Shown one piece after another: positions 5,364-52,288 of a stretch of 64,000 nt of DNA (its first letter is position 1; the number at the start of each line of letters is the position of its first letter). Origin of the DNA: Chrysoperla carnea (taxonomy: Eukaryota > Arthropoda > Insecta > Neuroptera > Chrysopidae); NCBI RefSeq assembly GCF_905475395.1, contig NC_058338.1, positions 43,373,935-43,437,934 on the forward strand, written 5' to 3'. The position numbers were made by a program, and so were the translations under genes. The notes under the pieces were generated by a model that saw nothing but the letters and a program-made list of their open reading frames with translations, searched no databases and was not told the DNA's origin.

Positions 5364-8300
5364 TTAAAATTGATTTATTGGTAAATCAATATTATCATCA
5401 GGAAAATTACGAGATATTGTAGTACCTAATATTTCTTCGGGGTATAAATGTTCCTCTGAACACACTAAGGCAGGTCCATTATTTAACCATTCCTGTAGAA
5501 ATTCAGTTCTCCCTTCTTGTAAACTATTCGATAGTGTTGAATCTTCAACATTGAGATGACTTGTTTGTTTATTTGGTTCAGAACTAGGACTAGCATCATA
5601 ACGGGAAGTTGAGCATTCTGCTCCATTGTAGGATTCCATCGAGCGTGCAATACGAATTTTTTTTGTATTTGGAAGTAGCATAGGTTCAGTTACTTTTAAC
5701 GTAGGATGGTCATTAAATGAATTGCACAGAAGATGACTAACACGTGGATCTAATAAATCTAATCCTTGCTCTATGTTACAATCCACACAATGTGAACTTC
5801 CTACAGATAATTGCGATTCATTACTTTTAGACATATCACAGTTGGAAATTGGTGTTTTATCATTATTTAAACTTGCTATTTGTAATCCGAGAAGTGATCG
5901 TGATTTATTACCGGTTTGATCTGAAAAATTGTAAATACATGTTATTAATATGTGAATTTGAAAATTTAAGATTTCACTTTTAATTCTCATTTCTAAATAT
6001 TACGACTTTAGTTAGAACTTATATTATGAAAACTAAGGTAATAATTATTTAAGTTTTTTTAATTGAAACTCAACAATTTTTCTAATTCGATGCGTCATAT
6101 TCTTCACCGTTTATTCATAACGAAATATGTAGTGACTTGACCCAAAAATAAGCCCATAGTCACACTAATGATGAATTCTTTCCGCATGGTGGGCTATGAT
6201 ATTATGATTGAACTTGAGATTATTTCGGTTCCTAATCATAATTTTAAGCAGAAAATAGAAGATTTGAGAATTTACATTCGATTTATCTATAATATTTTTT
6301 ACCTAAGAGGCATTTTTCTTCAGTGTTGCCAACTCAGTGGTTCTACCACTAAAACTAGTGGTTTTACTCTTCCTTTAGTAGGCAAAAATTATATTAGTGG
6401 ACAAATAATTTATAATTTATGCTAATTATTGTTTTGTGATAAAAATCGAAATATATACTGGCAACACGGCTGTCTAGTGGTTTTCAATCGCCTGTTTAGT
6501 GGACTTGAGAATTGAAAGTTGGAAACACTGCAATATTTCTTTCTCATTTCAATATTAATAGTTAATTTTTTTTTGCAAGTATGTTTTTGATATTTTGTTA
6601 AAAATTAATGAATAAACTGGTCAATATTTTTCTTCGTGTCCATTGAGGCATTTATTCAAAATGCTTAGAAGTACAATATGTCAAAATTCATACAATTTAG
6701 CTGGGAGTCAATTCTCATAAGGTTTGTGTGTGATCACGTCTAATTTTAATATTAAGAAAATTTAAGTTTATAAAATACTCCTGAATAAACGTATACAAAT
6801 CAAAACAGTACCTTTTCGTATAAAATAATCCATTGGCGAAGACGATGAACGATCAGATTTTAATGAAGAATTTTTTTTCGTATTTATTGATGTGTTCTTT
6901 TGCTGATGTGTATTGGATGCTGGTTCATAGTCATTGCGAAATTGCATTAACGTTAATAAATTTAGCAACGTTTTACGTAAATCAATAGTTGTTAAACCAC
7001 AATACCATCTCAATTGAGCAATATTTTTATTTAGTAAATACACAGCGTAATGAAAACAGCCTTGATCTTTCCCCCTAACATAAAGAGGGAACCTGAAAAA
7101 CAGTTAAACATTTGCATTTAATAACCTTGTTAAAGAATGAATAAGTAATTTTTATCAAAATACGTACTCGCGGTCTTTATCTGGAATTTTATCGGTAATA
7201 TAATCATAAATTTTTGATCGAGATCCATAATGATGAACAGGATACCGTAAAGGTACATGTAAAAAAATGCTACACATTTGTACAACATGTGCCACATATC
7301 CAAGACCAACACTGAGTGCCGTGTCGTCATTATCTGATAAGGATTCGCTGTCAGGTAAATAAACACCACATATCGTGTATGCTTTTTCACCCATCTGAAA
7401 GTAAAGTTTTTTAAATACAAAACCCAAAGGAGTCTAATTGTTAACCCAGGAAATTTTTTGAAGAGGAGCTTGAACTTTATACTTTTTTCATGTTCTTACT
7501 TTTTTTAAATTTATTTCATTCCCTAAAAATTTTTACAAGTCCGAATTTTTAGTCTGCATAAATAATGTAAAAAATGTTTATTTGTCGATACGGAAAAGAC
7601 GCAAAATGGGGATAGAAGTTTGTGTAAATTATTTGTAGTTACTGTTTTTTATTTATTTTTTAGTTTGTCAAAAATAACGTGCTTCGCGAATTCAACTTAA
7701 ATTGATCCTAGAGAGAAGCAAACTTGATATATTTTTTATCTTGATTAAAACATTAACACTCATGACGTCTTGTCTATAAACAAGAACAATAATAATTGGT
7801 CCATCATAGTAATTTCAATTAATGTTATGCGGGAGCTGTAATCATCGATTTACCTGCAGAATAAATAAGCTTAACTTACCTTTTCAATCGGATAAATATT
7901 TAACAATTCGGATATCAGCTGCTTTCTCCTTAAATTTAAATAAACAGAAGCATGAAGATACGCATCCCTTGTATCGACACATCGTTTACGCCAATCACGC
8001 ATTTTCTCCAAATCACGGCTTAATTGCCTGTATCTATCCATTAGCAATGACGCTTTTTAATAAAATAAAACCGATTATCATTTTTATAATTTGTTATGTT
8101 TATGTATAATAAATTTTTAACTTACAAGTATAATCGTTTTCGTCACTTAATTTATTAAAAGATTGAGTTAAATGTCTTAAATAAGCAGTTTTTCTATCTT
8201 TTTCCTTTGATAATAATTTGCAATTAAATTTTGCAGTTTCTATAATTTTTTTTAATCTCCAAATTTCCTGTCGTTGATATCTAGTTGGTTGAGACTAAAA

Positions 8301-26005: not shown

Positions 26006-26218
26006 CGCCAAACAAACTAATTGTTTGTTTTATTACTACTTCAAATATTGTTCATATAAATCCAATATCAAAATTTGTATTTCGGTTTACTTTTTGGATT
26101 CAATTCTTTTTCCACAAGATTAACATAAAAAAATTGTTAAAAAATAACATTAAAAAAAAATTTGTTGCAAATTTAGTTTGAAACGAATTATAAATTTGCT
26201 TTCGTTATATTCGGCAAG

Positions 26219-29200
26219 ATGTTTGTTCGGGCACAAAATACGGCACGGTTAACTAAAAATAATGTTATACTCATCGTTTTGATGTTGGTATCACTTGGCC
26301 AATGTTTACCTTCGCCAAAAATAATTAAACGTATGGCTGTGGAAGATAATGGAGCTATGGAATATCCAGATTACCAAACGGGTGTACAATATGATGAGTA
26401 TCCTGTAAGTCTCTTATTTTTTTCATGGCTCTAATTAAACTATTTGAATTGCATAATTATTTCGACCAATGAGTAAATTTTTTTTAATTGAAAAGTTTTT
26501 TTAAAAGTTATTAGTGCGTCTAAAATTCAACTTTATGTGTTTTTGTGGAATATACAGAGTGTCCCAAAAATAACCGGACCAAACAGAAACCAAAAAATGC
26601 ATTCCTTACAAAATCCTAAGCAGAAAAATCCTTTGACAATTTTCAATCTGAGCCATCGTTAATCGTTAACGACAAAGGTCTCGATAATTAACATTTTTAG
26701 TTCTAAGAATTTCTCAACTAATATTAGGAAAACTATTATTTCATCAGATAATTTTTCGGTGGGTTTAATATTTACAGAGAAATCGACATTTAAAGACTAG
26801 AACAGAGGCTCTCAAACTAATCTCCTCACTTTGAGAACATTTGGATTATAAGTATGTAACACGAATGATGGAAAATATTCGGATTTCGTACTATTCTAAT
26901 TTTACGGTTTTTAAAATTTTGTTGTTTGAAAATTTTTAATCTCAAATTATTGGAAATTAGGTGTGGCATTTAAAAAACAAAGTGAACTTCTGTTTGATCG
27001 TAAAGGCGTCCCCATATAAAAAATGAAACTCTAAAAACGAGCCGATACTTTTTCACTTTTTTATTTGCCTTTCCGTTTTGGAAATAGGAGGATAGAATAT
27101 TTTTCTAACATCACCTGCATGTCATGCCATTATATTAAAAAACATAGACATATCCAGTGTGTTGCATTTAGGATGAAGACATCCACATATTTTCGTTATT
27201 CATAGGAATATCAATTTGAAATTTTACACAGCAATACAGGACAATGGGTCACATTTTTTAGAGATATCGAAAAAAGAGATGGTTAGAGATATCGAAAAAA
27301 AACTATTAGAAAAAATTGATTAAAATATCTATCACTGTGGTCACTTCTAAACTTCGGTGAATATCGTCATTACGTACATGCCATGGAGAATCACTAATTG
27401 TTCACAACACTTTTAATTGAAATCTTTGCATAATTTCGATATTGTTGTTGCTAGCAGTTCCCCATAGCTGAATGCCATTGGTCTACCTAGGTTTAAGTAT
27501 TGTTTTATACACTTGCACTTTATTGTTCAATGATAGCTTAGAATTTTGACCTAGGAGCCAGTATAAATTATAGAAAACTTTCAAGTTTAACTGTTTTCTT
27601 TTCAACCAGATGTGGTTACGCCAAGTAAGTCTAGCTTTTACCAAGGTGTATACCTAGATATGTAGAAGCAATGATTCTCAATATAATTAGAAAAATATAA
27701 AAAAAAAAATTTTTTTAATATTTAAAAAAATTCGTTTAGTTATTTTTTAATATTTTTTCAAATTTTTTTTCAATTTGTATTTTATGTTTTTTTTAATAAT
27801 ATTTTTATTTTATAAATTATTTTTGATATTTTTCGTGTAGTAGAGCAGGCGATTTACTCTATCTTTTCTCAGTGAAATATTTCGATTACTATTGCTTCTA
27901 CGGAAGTTTTGTAAAGAACTTTTTTTTTTTTGTAAAATTAACTCACAAACAAATTGTATAATAGATAAAACTGCTGTAGACTTAATAGTTTCCGAGATAT
28001 TTGATTTAAAAAAATTTTTGTGACCTTTTGACCTTGAATAATTTGTTTCGCGCACATGATTTTGCAATGGACTTTTCATTGGTCATTTTTTGCATCCGCA
28101 TAAAAATAATTTCGGTGAAAAAAATTTCACTTGAATTTTTTAAGCAGATAAATATCTCTAACTATCTCTGACGATAGGGAAAATAATAACAATCAGCCTT
28201 ATTTGTCGTATGTATATTGACGGGCACTCCATCAGAAAGTAGGTATTGGTAAAATAGAAATTTTTAATATAATTTATCAAAAAATACAATATTTTAATAT
28301 TTATTCAATCAAAAGGTTAATGGCCTTGTCTCTAAAAGTCATATCCTTACGGCTTGTTAAACTATGATATTTTTGTACACTTATTTACGCAGCATATCAC
28401 GATACATTTTATTCATATCATATTCATCGTATCATACGTAAACGCTTTGTTATATTAGTGCCACTGGATTATGGTAAGAATCGTTAGTTTAAAATCAATC
28501 TAGGAAGATTTTAAACTGACGATATATTATGAACGAAATTTAATATTTACAATCTAACGTTTTTATTTTCGTGAGTTTATAAACTAACAATGTTTACCAT
28601 TCAAATCGTACTTTAACACATGAAGAAAGGCAAAATACGCACTGACTGGTTGAATAAGTCGTTATTCTATAAGGGTATAAGAAAGAACCCATAAGAGAAA
28701 AGGCACCCATCTAACAAAATTATCTCAAAATCATTTTTTTCAAAACACCTGCTTGAAAACAAAAGTAGTAAATAATGAACCATTTTTGAAAAAATTTGTC
28801 TGGCTTCAATTTTTGGTAGTTAACTTCTGACAGACCTTTTGTTATAAATTATTTTTTCTACGAAAATACACTTCATAACACCTCCTTTGATTAAAAAAAA
28901 AAGTTTAAGATATCATCTGTCTGTTGCAACTTATCTGGCTGACAACTTTAATAAATTTGCCAGACTTAATTTTGAATACGCAGAAAATGAAGTCTTAAAA
29001 ATATTTGTTTATGTGAATTTGTTGTGAGTATGTGAGTTTGCTGACAAACCAATTTTTATATATAAAATAGATGTCTACCTTCGTACTAAAAAAAAAATTA
29101 TGGTGGATTGAAACCGGTTACTTCGACCTCATCCCTTTTTTTATTTCAAGCGTACTTTTTGAGTGGCTACAGCCTTATTATTGTATATTTTCAATCTCGT

Positions 29201-38200: not shown

Positions 38201-40017
38201 TGTAGATGGAGTCGGTTACTTCGTTCTCATCCAAGCAACGACAGCACTGCCGCTGCCTAGGTTCGAACCCGCAACCTCCTAGCCCAGCGGTCATAGCACG
38301 ATAAGATGCCTTAACGAGCTCGGCCACTGGACTGGTACTTCCGATAAAGACAACCCCATCCATCCGTGGGCATGATAATAAAAATCTTTCAACGGTACCA
38401 AAATTCGAATGTTCGAATTTGTTTAGCAAGATATGCTAGGCTAAAATTTTCTTCTGAATTTTATTTTCTACAATGATTCTTAATTTGATAAAACTGGCGG
38501 CACATTATTTTCTTTTAAAAAACTAAAATAGTTTTTTTCATAGATGGTTGTGCCGAAGAGAGCGGCTCTATTACTTGATCGAATGATGGTTGCTATACAG
38601 AAAGCAATGGAAGATGAAAAATCAGCTCAACGTAGTTCTGGAGGTAATCGATGGGTTTCTTCAGATGATTCAAATTCTAATCCATGGAATGCAACTAAAA
38701 GCACAGAACATCAGGTACATATTTAAATTACAATAATTACAATTAACATTCCCATACGCCAATATTTGATCAAGAGAATCCACAGACAAGACAAAAAAAA
38801 AACTCAAAGAAAGTTGTTAGGTTTGAAAACCTGATACTTATCTCATATTTGAGCTTACTTAGTTCTTTAAGTCTTTAATAGTCTACTGAGAAGACATAAA
38901 AGAGCACATTACTCCAATTATCTTAGGGTTTCAGCTACGAATTTTTACCAAAGAATTTAAAACTTTACCAAAGACATTTATACCACTTTATCTTCTCCAT
39001 CGTTCCAAATCGTCGTCTCCTTTTTGCCTACACCTGTTCATACCATGTATATGAAATATACCAAGGTATATTAAATTTGATGCTATGAACAAAATTTTGG
39101 TATAGGAGTTCATAAAATCACCTAATTAGTCCATTTCCGGTTGTCTGTCTGCCTGTCGTCTGTCGTCTGTCCGTCCGTCATCACGGTTACTCAAAAACGA
39201 AAAGAGATATCAAGCTGATTACAAGAAATTTTATAGCGTGTTGAGGACGTAAAAAGTGAGGTCAAGTTCGTAAATGAGCAATATAGGTCAATTGGGTCTT
39301 GGGTCCGTAGAATCCATCTTGTAAACCGTTAGAGATAGAACAAAAGTTTAAAATATAAAATATAAAAAATGTTCCTTATAAAAAATTAAACAACTTTTAT
39401 TTGAAACATTTTTTCGTAAACATCATCATGATTACTCAAAAGCGAAAAGAGATATCAAGCTGAAATTTTTATAGCGTGCTCAGGACGTAAAAACTGCTGA
39501 GGTCGAGTTCGTAAATGAGCAACATAGGTCAATTGGGTCTTGGCTCGACCCATCTTGTAAACCGTTAGAGATAGAACAAAAGTGTAACTATAAAAAATAT
39601 TCCTTATCAAAAAATAAACAACTTTTGTTTGAAACATTTTTTCGTAGACATCACTGTTTACCCGTGAGAGCGCAAATTATGCGCAAATTGTATAGTATGT
39701 ACTATATGGGAATATCAGTTGTGTGACATGTATATATGTGTAATGTGAAAGAGTAATCAGCATTGTCTATATATGGTATTTCAACAGCTAACTCAGTCAA
39801 TTGTTTGTTTTCACTTGTTTATTACTATTATTTGATTAGAGCAACACTATATAGAATATATCGGCGACTATACGATTAATTGATTTAATATGAATTTTTG
39901 TATTTTTATTAGATGGAATTACAACGTCGGGGTCATGAAAGCAGCAGCGTGGATGGTCAACATCATAAGGGACGAACATATTGGAGATGTTATTTTAACG
40001 CTGTTACATGTTTTTAA
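26219..40017 (+). CDS. Allatostatin double C (AST-CC) neuropeptide precursor, three exons
   Basis: A secreted prohormone of the arthropod somatostatin-like allatostatin C family; these peptides act through somatostatin-type GPCRs and are linked to feeding, hormone and immune control. Exons 26219-26404, 38544-38714 and 39913-40017 join in phase 0 to 153 aa. Seen: a signal peptide (hydrophobic core residues 16-26, VILIVLMLVSL, cut near Cys29), dibasic sites KR 37-38, KR 67-68 and RR 124-125, the family block PKRAALLLDRMMVAIQKAME at 66-85, and the C-terminal peptide TYWRCYFNAVTCF with Cys145 and Cys152 forming the expected disulfide. Arg140 could give a shorter monobasic product. The protein ends on Phe153 with no Gly, so the peptide should have a free, non-amidated C-terminus. 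The donors (GTAAGT, GTACAT) and both acceptors (T-rich, ending AG) are clear. Intron 1 is 12.1 kb and full of repeats; intron 2 is 1.2 kb and mostly repeat family A. Confidence 0.95.
29940..30474 (+). repeat. Dispersed repeat family A, copy 2 (full length)
   Basis: Begins TATACCATGTATATATGAAA and ends GTTTGTTTTCACTTGTT, with all landmarks in the same order as the other copies (CCATTTCCGGTTGTCCGTCC, the GATATCGAGCTGAAA block, GGTCAATTGGGTCTTGAGTC, TAAACCGTTAGAGATAGAAC, CGTAAACATCACTGTTTACC). It inserts in AST-CC intron 1 in the gene's orientation. Confidence 0.8.
32663..32703. repeat. Perfect 17-bp-arm hairpin
   Basis: Arms 32663-32679 and 32687-32703 are exactly complementary around a 7-nt loop. 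It lies deep in AST-CC intron 1. It may be a relic of a small MITE; nothing shows it is an RNA gene. Confidence 0.8.
33151..33393. repeat. Two tandem units of a dispersed repeat
   Basis: A roughly 95-bp unit starting ATCGCGCGAACAAAAA occurs at about 33152-33246 and again at 33298-33393 with about 80 percent identity by eye. It follows a GT-rich microsatellite (TGTGTGTGCGTGTGTGTATG) and CGTACGTCCGTGGACA. The pattern resembles arthropod dispersed repeats with Cys/Arg-poor chance frames; it has no coding content. Confidence 0.65.
35177..36355. mobile_element. 1179-bp hAT-type non-autonomous element
   Basis: The inverted ends CAGTGGCGGATTTA and TAAATCCGCCACTG are perfect over 14 bp, and the 8-bp target ACGACCAG is duplicated exactly on both sides (35169-35176 and 36356-36363). 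Both are hallmarks of the hAT superfamily. Next to both ends are the words GCGGCAAA and GGCGGCAAATT. The AT-rich middle has no transposase frame, so it depends on an element elsewhere. Confidence 0.92.
37385..37675 (+). mobile_element. tRNA-derived SINE, copy A, with 16-bp target duplication
   Basis: The head carries an A-box-like stretch (ATGGCGTTAGTC) and a B box (GGGCTCGAATCC) spaced as in a tRNA with a long variable arm. The body shares CAGCGGCAGTG, CGAAGTAACCGA and AATGATGTGGGT with copy B. It ends in (ATT)n. The 16-bp word ATATACGTCTTCATAG flanks it perfectly (37369-37384 and 37676-37691), showing target-primed insertion. Confidence 0.92.
38080..38334 (-). mobile_element. tRNA-derived SINE, copy B
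   Basis: On the minus strand it starts GTCCAGTGGCCGAGCTCGTT, which matches the acceptor and D arm of Ser/Leu (class II) tRNAs, followed by a B box GGTTCGAACCT, the same body as copy A and an (ATT)n tail. Imperfect flanks GTACTTGGAT and GTACTTCCGAT look like a decayed target duplication. The A and B boxes are better preserved than in copy A, so this is the younger or more constrained head. Confidence 0.88.
39040..39820 (+). repeat. Dispersed repeat family A, copy 3, with internal duplication
   Basis: Starts ATACCATGTATATGAAATATA and ends in CAATTGTTTGTTTTCACTT. About 240 bp of the middle (ACTCAAAAACGAAAAGAGAT to the CGTAAACATCA block) occur twice, near 39184-39424 and 39425-39650, so this copy is about 780 bp instead of 540. 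It fills two thirds of AST-CC intron 2. Confidence 0.8.
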
Positions 40018-43433: not shown

Positions 43434-43439
43434 TTTATT
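43434..43439 (-). promoter_or_regulatory. Candidate poly(A) signal of the gag-like gene
   Basis: AATAAA on the minus strand about 240 bp beyond the stop of the gag-like gene, the nearest canonical hexamer seen. Confidence 0.35.
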
Positions 43440-43678: not shown

Positions 43679-46600
43679 TTAAGATCGACAACGTGATCTT
43701 GTTTCTCGAGATTGCGAAATACTTCTTGTTGTAGACAATGACATACTTACAGGGATAGCATTCATTAATTGTACTCGAACGGGACACTAAAAAAATTGAT
43801 AACAGGAATTTATTTCAAATCGAAATTAAGGAGATATGCAAGGATTGAAGTTCATTAAAACTTTATAAATACATTTTTTGATTAACAATGTTTCCAAAAA
43901 TCACAAAAAATTCCTAGGTCATCGAGTTTTTTATTAATATCTTATCGTTCAAAGTTGACTGAAAAAATGATGAATTATAATGTTTATCCTTTTCAATTGG
44001 ATATTTCTATATCAAAAAATCTAGAGTGTGATAAAAAACTAAAACTAAAATATTTAGACAATCGTGTAGTTTATAATAATACCATAAAAATATAAGGTTT
44101 TCAATGATGTAAAAACAAAATTTTAATTTAATTATGAGTTCATCGAAGATCCATCATTTGATGAACAGAAACGACCAGGCGTGGATCTAGAAATTTTTTT
44201 CCGGGGGGGGGGGGGGGGGTAGAATTTTTGTCATTTTTGTTTTTCAATAAAATAACAAAAAAACCAAATAAACAAAGATTTTTTTTGTTTTTCGGTTTGT
44301 AAAATATTGATTCAGCTCTTTTTTTTGAAATGCGGGCTGTTTTGGGGGGGGTCATGACCCATGTGAGCCCCCCCCCCCTTAGATCCGCGCCTGGAAACGA
44401 CTATAGTTTGATATCTATATTATCAAATTTATAAGCAGCACTTGCACACAATATATTATATATTTTTGTAGTGGTATTGTAAAGGTAAAAATAAACCATT
44501 ATGTGACCACAAACCATGTATTTGGTTTATATGTGGAAACTACAATTGATAAGATTGACCTTGAAAATTACAACTGACAAGCACAATGGGACAGGCGCCT
44601 TTCGGAACGTTAGAAAAAATGACTCAATAATATGTGTCGGAGACCTATAGTTTATTATGCAGGGTTAAGATTCAATGTTACTGAAAGAATTGTCTTATTT
44701 TGAGAAGATCGATTTGTATTTAAAGAATTTTTAGAACATCCTTAAGTAATCATGGTTATTCACAGATTTAAATTGGTTTCGACTTAACGAAGTTCTATTG
44801 AATATTAAAAAAGAAGTTCTATTAAAATCAATGGAATTTAAAAATATCTTACACTTTTGTATGCAGCATGATGTGCTCCTGAACAATGACAGCATATTGG
44901 ATTATTTCGTGGACGTGGACAAAATTCTACACCATGAGGTTCACCACATCGAACACATCGGGGTAAGTGTCGACAATTCGCCGCCACATGCCAAAAACCC
45001 TAAAATATTACAGAAACAAAATACCTGTAAGATTTTAACAAAAATTCAGGTTTCCGCAGAATTAATTGTCATCTGATCATAAATGACGATGAAAAAAACT
45101 ATAATGGATCCAAGTATTTTTTTTTAAATAAAGATTTAAGAGTATGGGAACGAAAAAATGTAATTCTTCATAATTGTTCCATGATACAATCTCATATTTC
45201 ATGAGGAATTGCTTTTTTAATACGTAAATCTAACATTGTTCTCTTAAATAAAATAACATAGTATAATATTGCAAAGCAATAATCAATATTTATTTTATAA
45301 AGGAAAGTTAGTATTAACAAGTAAAAATAATTTCCTTAAAATTTAAAGACACATTTTCTTTATTTTCTTAGTATAAAAAAAAAATTACCTATAAAAACCA
45401 AGTTTTTATTATACATGTTTAAATTTTAAAAAAAATTTTTTTAATTTTGCCTGTAAAGTTTTAGCTCGATTGGATCACGGGAAAAGGGTTAAAAATCGAT
45501 TCAGGTTATTTTCGGCAGACAATCAGACAAGCATATATGCAGACACTATGATTTAAAAGAAAGGGAGTAAAAATGTTAGTTGGATCATCATATATATATA
45601 CCGCCCCCAAACAGAGGGCTTTCATTTTTACACTTTCGACTTTTAGAGTATCTCAAGAGACCCTGCACTAATTTTATAGAAATTACGGCTCATGTTACTG
45701 GATTTTGTAAATGCTAAACTTTTTGAGTTATGGCCGCTATAATGTAACTAATATATTTTGTCATTTAAAAAATACGTAAGTAATAAATATATATTATTGA
45801 GCGAGCCATTTGGATCGTTATGGAGGCTTGATAACGATGCCAAGTGCTACAAAATCTAATAATACAAGTAGATTTGGCAGAGGCCAATAAAATTAGTGCA
45901 TGTTTCAAATATGAAGTACGTTTAAGAAAAATAAAACATATATTTCGTATATTTTGAAAAAGGAAATAAAAAAATTTTTGTTAGGGTCCATGTACACTGT
46001 AGTTAATCTAGCTTTATTCGAAGGAAAACTAATATTTTTGATTGAAGATTGATCTTTGCCACACTGATTTGCTCGTTGTAGTCGTCTGGAATAATCTTTT
46101 CAAATATCTAAACCATCACTCGAACCGCTTCAATTTAACAAAACTTACTCTACCGGCAGCGCCGGCTCTACCCCCAAATCAAGGTCGAGCGAGATCGTCT
46201 TTCGGCGCCTTTTTTCAAAAAATTAGCCTGTATTTCAATAATCAGCACTTAAAATGCGAATTTGTTTTTCGCATTAGGCTTTTTGGCGCCCCTTGCATCC
46301 TGGAGTCTGGGTCTCGCCCCACTTGCTCCATCCTTGGTTCGGCGCTGTCTACCGGTATTATCTTGAACTGTTTAAAAGTAATTTTAGCTTGTGGGGGGGG
46401 GAGAATATATAAGAGTTCTCGCAGCTTTCTTCTTTAAATAAGCGACTGTTGCAAATGTTATATGTTACTCCATTGACATGAGTAGATACTTTTATTTACT
46501 TTGGCAGTTCTGTGAAAGTGTAGGGGTCTAGAAGATTTACCCACTAAAATTTCATTTATGTAACATTCATTTACTACGTGACGCAAGATAATCTATATTA

Positions 46601-49600
46601 TCATCTCTTTTTTAAATGAAAATAAAATATTGTAAATGATTGACATTTTATAAACATATAAATAATTAATTAGTTGCCGTTTGCATGCAGGATATATCTA
46701 TCATTTTTATGATACTAAAATAGAAAATGATTTAAAAAAAAGAAATGAATTTAAAGTATTAAATAATAAAATTGATTATTATATTAAAAAAAAAAAAAGT
46801 GACACTCAAGCTCATAATAATTTCTGTGTTAATTAAAACAATTAAAACAAACATCTATAAAAACAATTAATGGATATATTGTAAACCCACAAGAACATAT
46901 AAAACATGCTACTGGCATCTGTCTATTCAATTGAAATAAATTATTTAACCTCTTTCAATTCAAAAATAACTATACGAACGTCCTACATGTCCAAGAAAAT
47001 TGTAATTAAACAATGCACAGATTGCAACAATGTGATTTAATAAAATGATATTTGAACAATACATTGCAGAAACTAACTCTATTGTTGTAAAATACAGACG
47101 ATTTGCGAGAGGAAATTTGTATTTCTTGAGACTGTAGCCGACACTGTGCATTTAAACTAATAAAATAACATGAGTTGTAATAGCCGGAGAGCTCAGTGGC
47201 TTTTTTGAGTACGTACTTGAGGCACATGTGGATGGTGAAATCGACATCTTGGCTGGGAGGTTTAGGGACGTTAGTGAGCTATGCATTTTTTAATTTGCAA
47301 ATTTTTCCTTTGCAATAAATGATCTAGACACACTTTAATACTTATAAAAGTTTAAAGTCTAATATTACATGATTAAAGCATACGAGTTATCATCGCCTGG
47401 CATTATTTGGTGGCAGCTTAAATAGAATGGCAGGTGAATTTAATTTGCAATTTTTCCTATGCAAAAAATGTTCTTAAGGCACTTTTGAAACTTACAACAT
47501 TTTAAAGTCTTATGTTCAGTTATACGAGTTATCATCGCCTGGCATGAATTGGTGGGAGCTTAAATAGCCTGACTACTTCATTTTTGAAATTTGGAAATAG
47601 AACTCGTTGTAAATATCTCTTTTAAGGACGTACTTTGAACTTCATTTTTTAAGGACATAAATTTGTTTATTAGACCTATACAATCCGTTTTTGTACCATC
47701 TAGGCATACCCTACAACAGAAGATCTGTCGTATCGTATCTGTTGAGGCAATTACATGCTAAACACATATAATATAATACCTCTCACTTAGATGCATGGCT
47801 TAAGGAATGTATTCTGTCATACTAATGATATTGGTATATCTAGATGGTACAAAAACGGTCTGTATGAATGGAAAAATGGGAGATTTAACACATCCTCTAA
47901 AGAATATATTTCTTTAAATGCTGTTTCAAAAACATTAACTTTACAATTTTTTTTTTTTAATCAAAAGATTATTTCAAATAATGGTCCATAAAATTTCAGT
48001 GTCTGTGCTACTTATACTGATTTACTTTCCTATAAGAAAAAAACACATCTTTTGAAAATCTGGCGATGCTTATTTTTACATATACCGATTATATACGTGC
48101 AGCAAAAATTAGGCGTTTACATGTGCGTGTTTGCGTTCCCTTTCACCTTTTATAACTTTTACCCTTCTACCTGTAATGAACGTTTCTAAGCATAATTTTA
48201 GGATGATTTCTTCACACACGCTAAAGCTGCGAAATCTTGCCATTATCTTTGTTAAATAGATACGAAAAACAGAACGTGCATTAAGTTTGTCTGGATAGAA
48301 TTATAATATCATTTTCATAGATCCGAGTATTACTTTTATAAAAAGCCTATTAATTATCATGCCTTTTATCTAACCTTTAAATTCTTTGAAGGTCTGCAGT
48401 GAATTGCATTTTTAGAGATATTTGGATGGTGTATTACATCACATATTTTTCTAATAATTTTAATGAAAATATTGGTTATTTACTTGGCAACGATAGCACT
48501 GTAGAACAGAATCTGTATCGTGACCATCATTTGCTGCTGAATTTGATCTTGAATTTCGATACCATCGTTCAGGTACTGCTAAAAAACGAGCTGCATCAAA
48601 AAAATTAAGCCCTTGTGATATTAAATTTTCGTAATGATTTGCATCCAGTATTTCAACTCGTACATTATTTCGAAATCGATCAACGTTTTCATAAGAAATA
48701 CCTTGAAATGTTAATGCTGTACAAATATCTTGCATTGGAATAGACCATGGAACATCTCTTAGAGTTGCTATCTGAAATAATAATTTGCTTTAGTTAGACT
48801 TACTAAAAGATTTATATTACTTACGTGGCCAAGTGGAGTTCGCTAAGTATTTCTAGTTTTCGGGTGCTTTTCCAAAAATGAGCATAGAGAATTTTCCAAA
48901 CTGAACCGATTTTGGAGATCGTGGCCTTTTTTTAGTTGTTCCGGGTACGGAACTCTAAACTTGAACTTGTTACATAGCTAAGAACGCTCTCCATTAAATT
49001 ACATTTCAAACGAAACAAAAAAAATCAAAATTGGTTCATCCTTTTAGGCGCTCCAATACCACAGGCAGACAGACAGACATATAGAAGACACACACACATG
49101 GCGGTCAAACTTATAACACACCATTTTTTCTTTCGGGGGTTAAAAAAGTTTTTTCCAAGTATAGAAATTACAAAAGATAAGAAATTTGAGACGAGCTTCA
49201 GATAGAAAGTTTATAAATACTAATATTATCCCAACTCCATCCGATAGTTGAAAGGCATGACATTTTTTTGAAAACATTTTATGCTTTAAAATTTTGTATA
49301 GAGCCCGTATAGGTTCGTTAAAAAGATTAGGTTGTGGATATGCATTTTAGAATGAAAATTTTTAAACAAATTTCGATATAAATCTATTTTGATTGAAAAA
49401 AAATTTGTGGGTATATTTTTTGGAATGTACATGGTTTGGAATGGATTTTGGCATATAAATATTTTGATCCCAAAACATTTAGGTAAACAAAGTTTCTGAG
49501 TGAGGATCAAAATGGGAATAGCAGTGTAATCATCTTGAAGTGTTTTAAAAAAAAAAAATCCATAAACATTTTCAAGCCAAACGTTAAATTTGTTCGTTTA

Positions 49601-50655
49601 TTATTAGCATATCTGAATAAGAAAAAACTTGGAAGGATGCACGAAATATATATCGAATCTCACTTGGTCTTATGTTCCTTACTTGTTTATAACGAGCATC
49701 TCGACGTGAGAATCTTGCAACTTGAACTGGCCCATGAAGTGCTTGAGCCAAATTTAAATTTAATAACAGATTATCTGCATCTAATTCATGAGTGAAAGTT
49801 GCAATTAAGCCGCATTTTGTCTCTGAAACCTATAAAAAAAATCATAAAATTACAATACAATGTAATATTGAATTACAAATTTAAAGAAACCTCTGACACA
49901 AAATCAGATCTGATCGATTCGATTGTAACATCGTGTCATCCTAACATCGTATATACCTATCTATGTGTCATAGCTCCTAAACGAATGAATCAATTTTGAT
50001 GTTTTGATACCTTAAATGATCCTATTGGTTTAATGAATTGAATTGCCTTCTCCAAGTCTTTGTAATTGACTGGCTCTCGTTTCTCGTCACCTGGTCGAAC
50101 AATTGTGGGGCAAGCCGTTACATATAGAGAACACACAAACTCTAATTTTGAAAGAGACGCTCTTGGATTTTTATTGTTTTCAATATTTAAGTTGGTTGTA
50201 TCTGAAGTTTTATTGCTTAACGGTTGCTTATTTATCTGTACATCATTTTCATGAAAACGATTACTACCATTGAAAGAATTTTCACATTTATTAAAATCGT
50301 ACGATGTATTTGTTCCAGCATCTGATGATTTACAACATAAATTATCTTCTATGTTTGAAAGATCTTCTAGATTAACATTCAAAATTTTCTTCGATTCACT
50401 TGATTGTATGTAACTATCTGATTTATGTATGGTGTAATCGTTTATAGTATCAAAATTATTTATTTCATTTTCTTTCTTTAAACCACTAACTGGTGTCGAA
50501 GGTTGAGGCACGATTTTGGAGGTTGAAGCATTATTCGCCATGTATTCATTTTCATATAATGGTTGAGTAACTTCGGTTAACGACGATCTGGATATCATGG
50601 TGGGCTTTGGTAGTTTATTTTTTTTGCACTTCAACCACTTTTTACACCCGGTCAT
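43679..50655 (-). CDS. Spliced Gag/ORF1p-like zinc-knuckle protein, probable domesticated LINE gag
   Basis: Exons on the minus strand: 50655-50011, 49829-49683, 48771-48484, 44999-44853, 43786-43679; all introns GT-AG and phase 0, giving 444 aa. Seen: a disordered Asn/Ser-rich N-terminal half (1-180), two alpha/beta segments (about 185-265 and 265-340, the second with LRDVPWSIPMQDICTAL and NNVRVEILDANHYENLISQG), then three zinc knuckles: C-X2-C-X4-H-X4-C, C-X2-C-X3-H-X4-C and C-X2-C-X3-H-X6-C, followed by a short Ser/Arg tail. This triple-knuckle series after an RRM-like region is the plan of ORF1p/Gag from jockey/I-type LINEs, which bind RNA. There is no reverse transcriptase beside it. The clean T-rich acceptor at 50706, 50 bp before the ATG, implies an upstream leader exon I could not find. 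A strong GTAAGT inside the last exon could allow another 3' end. The host function is unknown. Confidence 0.8.
44176..44393. mobile_element. 218-bp hAT MITE with G-run and C-run arms
   Basis: Ends CAGGCGTGGATCTAG and TTAGATCCGCGCCTG are inverted, and GAAACGAC is duplicated exactly at 44168-44175 and 44394-44401. Each arm carries an unbroken run of G (left, over 15) or C (right, about 12), so the arms can pair through G:C tracts. It sits in the last intron of the gag-like gene. Confidence 0.92.
46157..46347. mobile_element. 191-bp hAT MITE
   Basis: Short inverted ends CAGCGCCG and CGGCGCTG with a perfect 8-bp duplication TCTACCGG (46149-46156 and 46348-46355). Inside, GGCGCC words and TCTTTCGGCGCCTT give a GC-rich block. 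It lies in intron 3 of the gag-like gene. A chance 131-residue plus-strand frame spans it. Confidence 0.9.
47292..47580. repeat. Imperfect tandem duplication, about 150-bp period
   Basis: AATTTGCAAATTTTTCCTTT through ACGAGTTATCATCGCCTGGC and the word GGCAGCTTAAATAG occurs at 47292-47430 and again, diverged, at 47442-47575. It lies in intron 3 of the gag-like gene; no coding or RNA role is apparent. Confidence 0.75.
48860..49145. repeat. Dispersed repeat resembling a LINE 3' tail
   Basis: The order ATTACATTTCAAACGAAACA, AAATCAAAATTGGTTCATCC, GGCAGACAGACAGACATATA, CACACACACATGGCGGTCAA ACTTATAACACACC (two adjoining pieces) and TTTCGGGGGTTAAA matches a very widespread type of insect dispersed repeat, possibly the 3' part of an RTE-like LINE. 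It sits in intron 2 of the gag-like gene. Confidence 0.5.
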
Positions 50656-51486
50656 TTTATAATAATACTTTAGATATCCTTTGTTATTACGGCTAGCCGT
50701 TTTTACTATGAAAGAAAAAAGAATTTATAATAGAAACAAAATCACAAAGAACCCACCATAATTTTAATGTAAAATAGTTTCTATTCAGAGTGCTTATAGA
50801 ATATACAAGTTAATCTTTTGCATCCTGAAAAATAACACAAAGCTAGAATTGATTTAATGTTTTCTTAGTGGACCTCTTCTAAAAAAAAAATTAGTAAAAT
50901 CAAAATCTAAGAATTTAAAAATGCTAAATTATCTTGCTTGAGTTTCGGTTTTGAAGATCGCAAATCTAAATCTAGGAATAGAAAATAAGAAAATTCAATA
51001 TCCAATTTGTACCATTTTAAACTGTGAACACTAATTATTTGTAATTAAAAATGTTTGCAACTAGATTTTTTGGGGCATTCTTAACGATGCAGTAAACCGA
51101 ATCCCCGAATTGGATGTTGAAATTTCACATTTATTGTAAAAATTTTATGTTTTATCGTTTAAAATAATTGAGTTTTGAAAGTTATCCGTATTCAAAGATA
51201 ACATAGATAATTTAAAGTAAGTGTAAGGAAAGTTTTGTGTTATGTCAAAATAAATATCCTGATCAAACCAAACGTAATGTACGCACATATTGGGTTTGGT
51301 ACTAAATCAGAAGAATTAATTCACACAGTAAAAACTAAAAGTAGCTATAGAATTAAATTCTTTAAAGAATCAAACAAGTATTTGACTTCTAAAATTAATA
51401 CCTTAAATTTTCAGAAAAATATATTGTAAATAAAAAAAGTAATTGCTAAAGGGCTCTCAGGCTATTCTTCTGAATAAAATCTAGGC

Positions 51487-51566
51487 ATATAGATAAGTGC
51501 AAACTCTCAGACAATTTTATTTTTATATATAGATAAGTGCAAACTCTCAGACAATTTTATTTTTAT
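51487..51566. repeat. Exact 40-bp tandem duplication
   Basis: Two identical 40-bp units (51487-51526 and 51527-51566), each starting ATATAGATAAGTGCAAACTC. No divergence between the units, so the duplication is recent or could vary between individuals. Confidence 0.95.
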
Positions 51567-52288
51567 AATTATATAGATTTCAATAATTTTTACCCAGAAA
51601 TGTTAAAATCTTAGGTTGTTACATGTAAGAAATACGACATACTAGAAAAACCTTTCACATTTCACCCGTTAAGTCATAGGTTTAAAAATAAAAAACAATT
51701 TGTATAGGTATTGATTTCAAATTTTATTAAAATCGGTCCAGCCGCTTTACCCGCTTAAGCCAATTGGACTGATTGTCTTGTTATTTTCCCATTTACTTTA
51801 GTAACGATTAGGGATTTTTTTGCGGAAATTGGAGAAACGATAAATATTTTATTTGATGTAAAAGCGTACTAAATACATAATAATCCAATATTTTGTTGTG
51901 CCGCGGAATATTAACATTAAATAAATAAACTGGTGCAGTCTACTACAATAACTGTCAACTGAAGTAACTCAAGAGTTAATTTGTTTAGAGTTAAAACAAG
52001 CATATTAATTACTACTGTCTTTCTTGTGTTCTTGTAATCCTCGTTGTAAATTCAATTATAGCGGGTGGAACGTAAAAATGAAAATAGAAAGTATTTTATT
52101 GACAAATTCTTATTGTCTATAAACACAACAAACCAATAAAGAAATGTGGATCAGATACAATAACAATGGGCAGAAAATTTTGGTTCGTATTGATGAAGCC
52201 GATAAGGATTCACGAGTTTGAAAAAGAAGAATTGGTCAAATATTATTGAGATGGCCAAGAGCCAAGCTTGTAAAATTTTGTTTACGAG

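Follow-up and report, generated by a model that had tools for sequence, protein, structure and literature searches.

Host genes derived from the first open reading frame (ORF1) of long interspersed nuclear elements (LINEs) have rarely been reported; the capture of gag genes from long terminal repeat (LTR) elements is well documented. The closest precedent for the gene described here is L1TD1 of placental mammals, which is likewise a spliced, protein-coding host gene derived from a LINE ORF1 and without a reverse transcriptase (RT). By 2014, L1TD1 was the one protein-coding gene newly formed from a non-LTR element that had been described (PMC4161310, excerpt). Here, we analyzed a gene on the minus strand of a 64-kb stretch of Chrysoperla carnea contig NC_058338.1 (the window; coordinates are window positions unless another contig is named). 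Judged by homology and predicted splicing, it is likely a single-copy spliced host gene for a basic protein of 444 amino acids (aa), derived from the ORF1 protein (ORF1p) of a type I (jockey/I-superfamily-like) LINE.

The type I LINE ORF1ps of the I, Jockey, R1 and other clades share with this gene three CCHC zinc knuckles, the ligand spacing and the first linker. Unlike them, the gene is split by four introns, has no ORF2, is single copy, uses host codons and ends in a shorter tail. L1TD1 differs in its origin from L1 ORF1, with a coiled coil, an RNA recognition motif (RRM) and a C-terminal domain (CTD), and in its two ORF1-like units and two coding exons (PMC4161310, excerpt); our gene has three knuckles and one ORF1-like unit. 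The EKA effector family of powdery mildew likewise evolved from a LINE ORF1, but it is a fungal gene family with an effector function (PMC4641428, excerpt). Mammalian genes taken from LTR gags and other transposons (ARC, PNMA, RTL) are likewise captured retroelement genes, which gained introns in untranslated regions (UTRs) and in coding sequence (PMC3257199, excerpt). However, they are not LINE-derived, and an LTR gag is marked by a capsid domain, while Pfam returned neither a capsid-like match nor an L1-type ORF1p domain (coiled coil, RRM, CTD) in our gene. Among the titles and abstract openings listed from the open-access literature, no domesticated type I ORF1p gene was found. If the proposed origin is correct, the gene would represent a case independent of L1TD1, namely a knuckle-bearing type I ORF1p with four coding introns.

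Gene model and zinc knuckles

An initial annotation had proposed five exons with an intact frame and consensus GT-AG sites. This model was recovered when the exons were rebuilt from the sequence: joined, the five exons (645, 147, 288, 147 and 108 nt) form one open frame of 444 aa (50.2 kDa, isoelectric point (pI) 8.7) from a start ATG at 50655 to a stop codon ending at 43679. All four introns are in phase 0 and bounded by GT-AG, and retention of introns 1 to 4 would bring in 4, 12, 72 and 20 in-frame stops, respectively. By a simple consensus score, the donors of introns 2 and 4 score highest in their open frames, and those of introns 1 and 3 tie for the top score. A further exon upstream is likely because an acceptor-like TTTTTCTTTCATAG ends at 50706, ahead of the start codon; the exon suggested by this site was not found. 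A splice-like pattern search gave no match. The features of the locus, with the introns as obtained from the splice-site check, are as follows.

50656..50705, minus strand: probable 5' part of exon 1, next to the acceptor-like site
50011..50655, minus strand: coding exon 1, 215 aa; N/S/T/Q-rich N-terminus, open frame with weak codon signal
49830..50010, minus strand: intron 1, 181 bp
49683..49829, minus strand: coding exon 2, 49 aa; sixth-best coding segment in the window
48772..49682, minus strand: intron 2, 911 bp
48484..48771, minus strand: coding exon 3, 96 aa; contains the RRM-like region and, at 48484-48498, the beginning of knuckle 1; second-best coding segment
45000..48483, minus strand: intron 3, 3484 bp; divides knuckle 1
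44853..44999, minus strand: coding exon 4, 49 aa; fourth-best coding segment, with LINE alignments; remainder of knuckle 1 (44973-44999), knuckle 2 (44919-44957) and most of knuckle 3 (44853-44894)
43787..44852, minus strand: intron 4, 1066 bp; divides knuckle 3
43823..44535, no strand assigned: abundant-repeat copy within intron 4; the stretches 43823-44175 and 44410-44535 match the repeat (~45% of the intron)
43679..43786, minus strand: coding exon 5, 35 aa followed by the stop; supplies the final Cys of knuckle 3 and the tail
43434..43439, minus strand: candidate poly(A) signal, the first AATAAA past the stop, 240 nt downstream

The knuckle array of the gene, CX2CX4HX4C-X5-CX2CX3HX4C-X8-CX2CX3HX6C, retains all zinc ligands. 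For comparison, 20 LINE loci (L033-L052), mostly with long open frames, were picked by hand from matches in the genome (559 Mb, 337 contigs). The same three motifs and the X5 first linker are present in all 20 LINE ORF1s, each time in one open frame, and the second linker ranges from 7 to 15 residues. This bears out the knuckle order and spacing given in the initial annotation, as well as its contrast between intronless LINE copies and a split gene. A BLAST search with the joined product, a check proposed at the same time, matched every LINE ORF1 of the set. All 20 LINE alignments are free of gaps within four residues of junction 3; 19 extend as far as junction 4, and 17 of these are ungapped there over the same distance. 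Splicing at these two points restores knuckles 1 and 3, as homology requires.

When the whole product was compared with LINE ORF1 alignments using hhalign, probabilities of 96.9-98.7% (E 1e-10 to 2e-16) were obtained, and the alignment is colinear into the RRM2-like region (aa 227-418). At the level of sequence, these comparisons show homology of the knuckles to LINE ORF1p and suggest homology of the RRM. The segment preceding the knuckles measures 355 aa in the gene and 217-363 aa in 19 LINE ORF1 open frames (the truncated L048 omitted). The tail after the last Cys of knuckle 3, which is basic, Ser/Arg-rich and has a pI of 12, comprises 34 aa, compared with 106-185 aa in the 20 LINE open frames.

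Of the LINE loci in the set, 18/20 contain an ORF2 that is 400 aa or longer and has the RT motif. Pfam identified RVT_1 and an endonuclease domain in all six ORF2s scanned and RNase H in two of them, so the LINEs include a group with RNase H as well as a jockey-like one. None of 18 ORF2 queries matched the window near the gene, in agreement with the reported lack of an RT partner. The gene thus does not show the intronless ORF1 followed by an ORF2 with endonuclease and RT of an autonomous LINE copy. Its single copy, predicted splicing and absence of an RT are those of a domesticated LINE ORF1 gene, whose descent from a LINE we infer from homology.

Codon usage, copy number and competing origins

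After a hexamer model derived from LINE ORFs had given every exon a negative score, a codon model was built on kinase-domain stretches found in this genome, using the 20 best matches. Under this model, exons 3, 4 and 2 take second, fourth and sixth place among the coding-like segments of the window, the top segment (5379-5888) lying close to an ATG14/Vps38-like open frame. Synonymous usage was then compared between the 20 kinases and the 20 LINE ORF1s, some of which are near-identical, each sequence being left out when scored. The gene lies +0.103 nats per codon towards the kinases, and the left-out controls range from 0.082 to 0.236 for the kinases and from -0.244 to -0.052 for the LINE ORF1s. 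By exon, the scores are 0.033, 0.173, 0.163, 0.212 and 0.113 for exons 1 to 5, with exon 1 lowest. GC content at third codon positions (GC3) is 0.209 in the gene, 0.200 in the kinases and 0.348 in LINE ORF1. The codon usage of the gene is host-like, not LINE-like. Together with the predicted split, the single copy and the missing ORF2, it supports the earlier proposal that this open frame, being spliced, is kept as a host gene.

Exons 2-5 show strong periodicity, with GC contents by codon position of 0.522/0.474/0.143 at an intron GC of 0.301 (chi-square p 1e-18). For exon 1, the argument for coding is the length of its open frame: its 244 codons exceed the longest frame of every one of 100 random 64-kb sequences generated by an order-3 Markov model (202 codons at most). 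When neutral decay was simulated from the coding sequence of the gene, 3.7% of copies had no stop after 0.05 substitutions per site, and 0/300 after 0.1; neutral drift is disfavoured because the simulated frames soon gain stops. A chance arrangement of LINE relic pieces that forms no functional gene is highly improbable, as it would have to explain 444 codons without a stop, the retention of every zinc ligand, GT-AG exactly where homology requires the junctions, the periodicity of exons 2-5 with a GC3 below the intron GC, and the rapid loss of open frames in the simulation. It would, however, fit the repeat matches over ~45% of intron 4 and the fact that introns 1 and 2 are supported almost solely by sequence signals.

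The gene is single copy in the 559 Mb genome. When the whole genome was searched at the protein level with exons 2-5 (best 150 of 285 candidates), four matches fell on its own exons; the remaining 146 show 31-46% identity and are confined to query residues 120-217 around the knuckles. With the N-terminal 353 aa, all four candidates were scored; three lie in the gene's own exons, and the fourth is a match at chance level (E 2.92). In a tree of the knuckles, the gene sits on the longest end branch (2.5, compared with a median of 0.15) and falls inside no supported LINE group. Given the low identity, the long branch and the lack of a supported group, the gene is not a recent copy of the LINE families seen here, and by these sequence distances it is old or fast-evolving.

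The same long branch without a close LINE, the four coding introns and the host codon usage would also be compatible with an ancient host gene for an RRM and zinc-knuckle protein that is related to LINE ORF1p by common descent but was not captured from a LINE, for example as the source of LINE ORF1. We regard this as very unlikely, since the knuckle array equals that of 20/20 LINE ORF1s and of jockey-lineage elements (PMC4120745, excerpt), and the documented direction is from LINE to host (PMC4161310, excerpt).

A chimeric host gene, in which exon 1 and perhaps exon 2 are host-derived and the RRM2-knuckle part was acquired from a LINE by exon capture, is also unlikely. Such an origin would account for the uniform phase 0 of the introns, for an N-terminal part whose only genomic relatives are its own exons and the E 2.92 match, and for the unlike codon signals of exon 1 and exons 2-5. 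However, the length of the segment before the knuckles falls inside the LINE range, and the N-termini of LINE ORF1s are likewise variable.

Several results weigh against the derivation of a host gene from LINE ORF1p or against parts of the gene model. The donor of intron 1 (GTATCA) is weak. Junction 1 is crossed by 1/20 LINE alignments (ungapped in that one) and junction 2 by 2/20 (ungapped in one). The RRM-like region of the initial annotation aligns colinearly with LINE ORF1, but significantly only when the knuckles are included; without them, the hhalign probability is at most 2.5% (best pairwise E 0.019). A single-sequence fold of exon 3 was unusable, with a mean predicted local distance difference test (pLDDT) score of 37.7. 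The Pfam domain PRE_C2HC, which precedes knuckles of this kind and was found in one of three LINE ORF1s scanned (L049), is absent from the gene.

The coding signal is likewise uneven. Under the kinase model, the synonymous score of exon 1 is reached by 20% of 924 null pieces and that of exon 5, which is borderline, by 5.5%; as a reference, two of three open frames of the ATG14/Vps38-like gene also score unremarkably (24% of null pieces each). The GC contents of exon 1 by codon position (0.349/0.353/0.279) reveal no significant periodicity (p 0.18). All exons score negative under the LINE-trained hexamer model, which taken alone would count against coding but fits a non-LINE codon usage. Scans of viral_contigs and genome_contigs, which are not collections of animal genomes, revealed no relative, and NCBIfam, a library for prokaryotes, gave no match. 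The sole Pfam match to the gene is RDV-p3, below threshold (E 0.022 and 0.12), an identity that we judged weak and rejected. A sequence search of the PDB yielded the nucleocapsid of human immunodeficiency virus (HIV) at an E of 0.11 at best, which was set aside as a generic knuckle match.

Proposed history and function

In the history that we propose, the captured ORF1 would have come without ORF2, keeping its three zinc knuckles and probably its RRM region, with a tail of only 34 aa. After capture, four coding introns would have been gained and host codon usage adopted, and for these reasons the capture is probably old. An old capture is also suggested by analogy, since captured vertebrate genes carry introns mainly in coding sequence when older and in the 5' UTR when younger (PMC3257199, excerpt), and the four coding introns match the pattern of the older ones. 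If this history is true, the gene could serve as a marker to date intron gain from an intron-free ancestor, following the approach of that study (PMC3257199, excerpt).

The N-terminus encoded by exon 1 is probably disordered and may be followed, in the same exon, by the start of a first RRM. CCHC domains are described as probable accessory RNA-binding domains, with the chaperone role of the HIV domain cited (PMC4120745, excerpt). The product is probably a single-stranded nucleic-acid-binding protein of ribonucleoprotein particles (RNPs), in which the knuckles and the RRM-like region would bind single-stranded RNA; it could serve host RNAs as a nucleic-acid chaperone or by packaging them into RNPs. 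A LINE ORF1p would then be useful to the host without its own RT.

Alternatively, the captured ORF1p could restrict LINEs by binding LINE RNA or ORF1p and poisoning LINE RNPs, a role that has been suggested for certain other genes captured from retroelements. The genome contains many open-frame LINE ORF1 copies that could be restricted, and the domain content suits RNA binding. However, the gene is only 31-46% identical to the resident ORF1s, and this in the knuckle region only. Simple poisoning of resident LINE RNPs would need co-assembly, and the divergence of the gene from these LINEs speaks against it; on balance, we consider a restriction role improbable. For the same reason, a general role with host RNAs seems likelier than co-assembly with resident LINEs. 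A more far-reaching proposal, which we consider quite unlikely, is that an old animal gene from a knuckle-bearing type I ORF1p encodes a spliced RNP regulator, possibly controlling the resident jockey-like LINEs inserted in 5S rRNA genes.

Resident LINEs and surroundings of the gene

Different jockey-like LINE copies share one end point within the 5S rRNA gene, immediately ahead of GGTTCTCGTCCGATC. This was observed at loci L033, L035, L040, L043, L047 and L050 and at the start of L034, on contigs including C7, C108, C119 and the start of C6. A 5S core is present in 7 of the loci L013-L072, in 6 of these directly after a LINE, and Rfam identified 5S in 6/6 loci tested. A motif search for the 5' part of the 5S gene at the LINE loci did not find it. 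These observations suggest that several LINE families insert site-specifically into 5S genes; jockey-like elements in 5S arrays of Tribolium freemani and Mutsu in zebrafish 5S have been described (PMC11202950, excerpt). Among the best 150 of 285 candidates, ORF1 matches at 5S-linked places are often ~11 kb apart. Telomeric arrays were rejected as a source of this regular spacing, as none of 20 LINE loci has a TTAGG run of at least 3 units and several are 5S-linked. Genome-wide, 458 overlapping (TTAGG)5 matches were counted, the first among the matches listed lying inside contig C1, and a telomerase RNA-binding domain occurs in a single 714-aa open frame (G000:C4:16343644-16344015).

In the window, the 18 ORF2 queries hit a single place, a relic of 300 bp (27333-27632, minus strand). 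It comes from the C-terminal part of a LINE ORF2 and is 86% identical to L049 and 79% to L042. The repeat copy in intron 4 is broken up by DNA that has inverted ends and contains runs of G and of C, and intron 3 contains a short repeat-matching stretch at 47761-47865. Leaving the locus itself aside, none of 85 listed repeat matches (best 40 of 10,730 candidates) lies in an exon.

The nearest recognised host gene is represented by a frame at 7155-7433 on the minus strand whose Pfam match to ATG14/Vps38 stays below the cut-off (24.7 bits against 33.2; E 1.5e-5), accompanied by open frames at 5364-5999 and 6768-7103; we take it to be UVRAG-like. The third-ranked coding-like segment under the kinase model lies at 38544-38669 (plus strand). 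A short open frame at 26177-26434 (plus strand) has a signal-peptide-like start, a host-like codon segment at 26306-26407 and no Pfam match; it could be exon 1 of a gene for a secreted peptide precursor. A 228-bp unit occurs as two repeats with 84% matches at 39178-39653, and an exact tandem duplication of 40 bp is found at 51487-51567.

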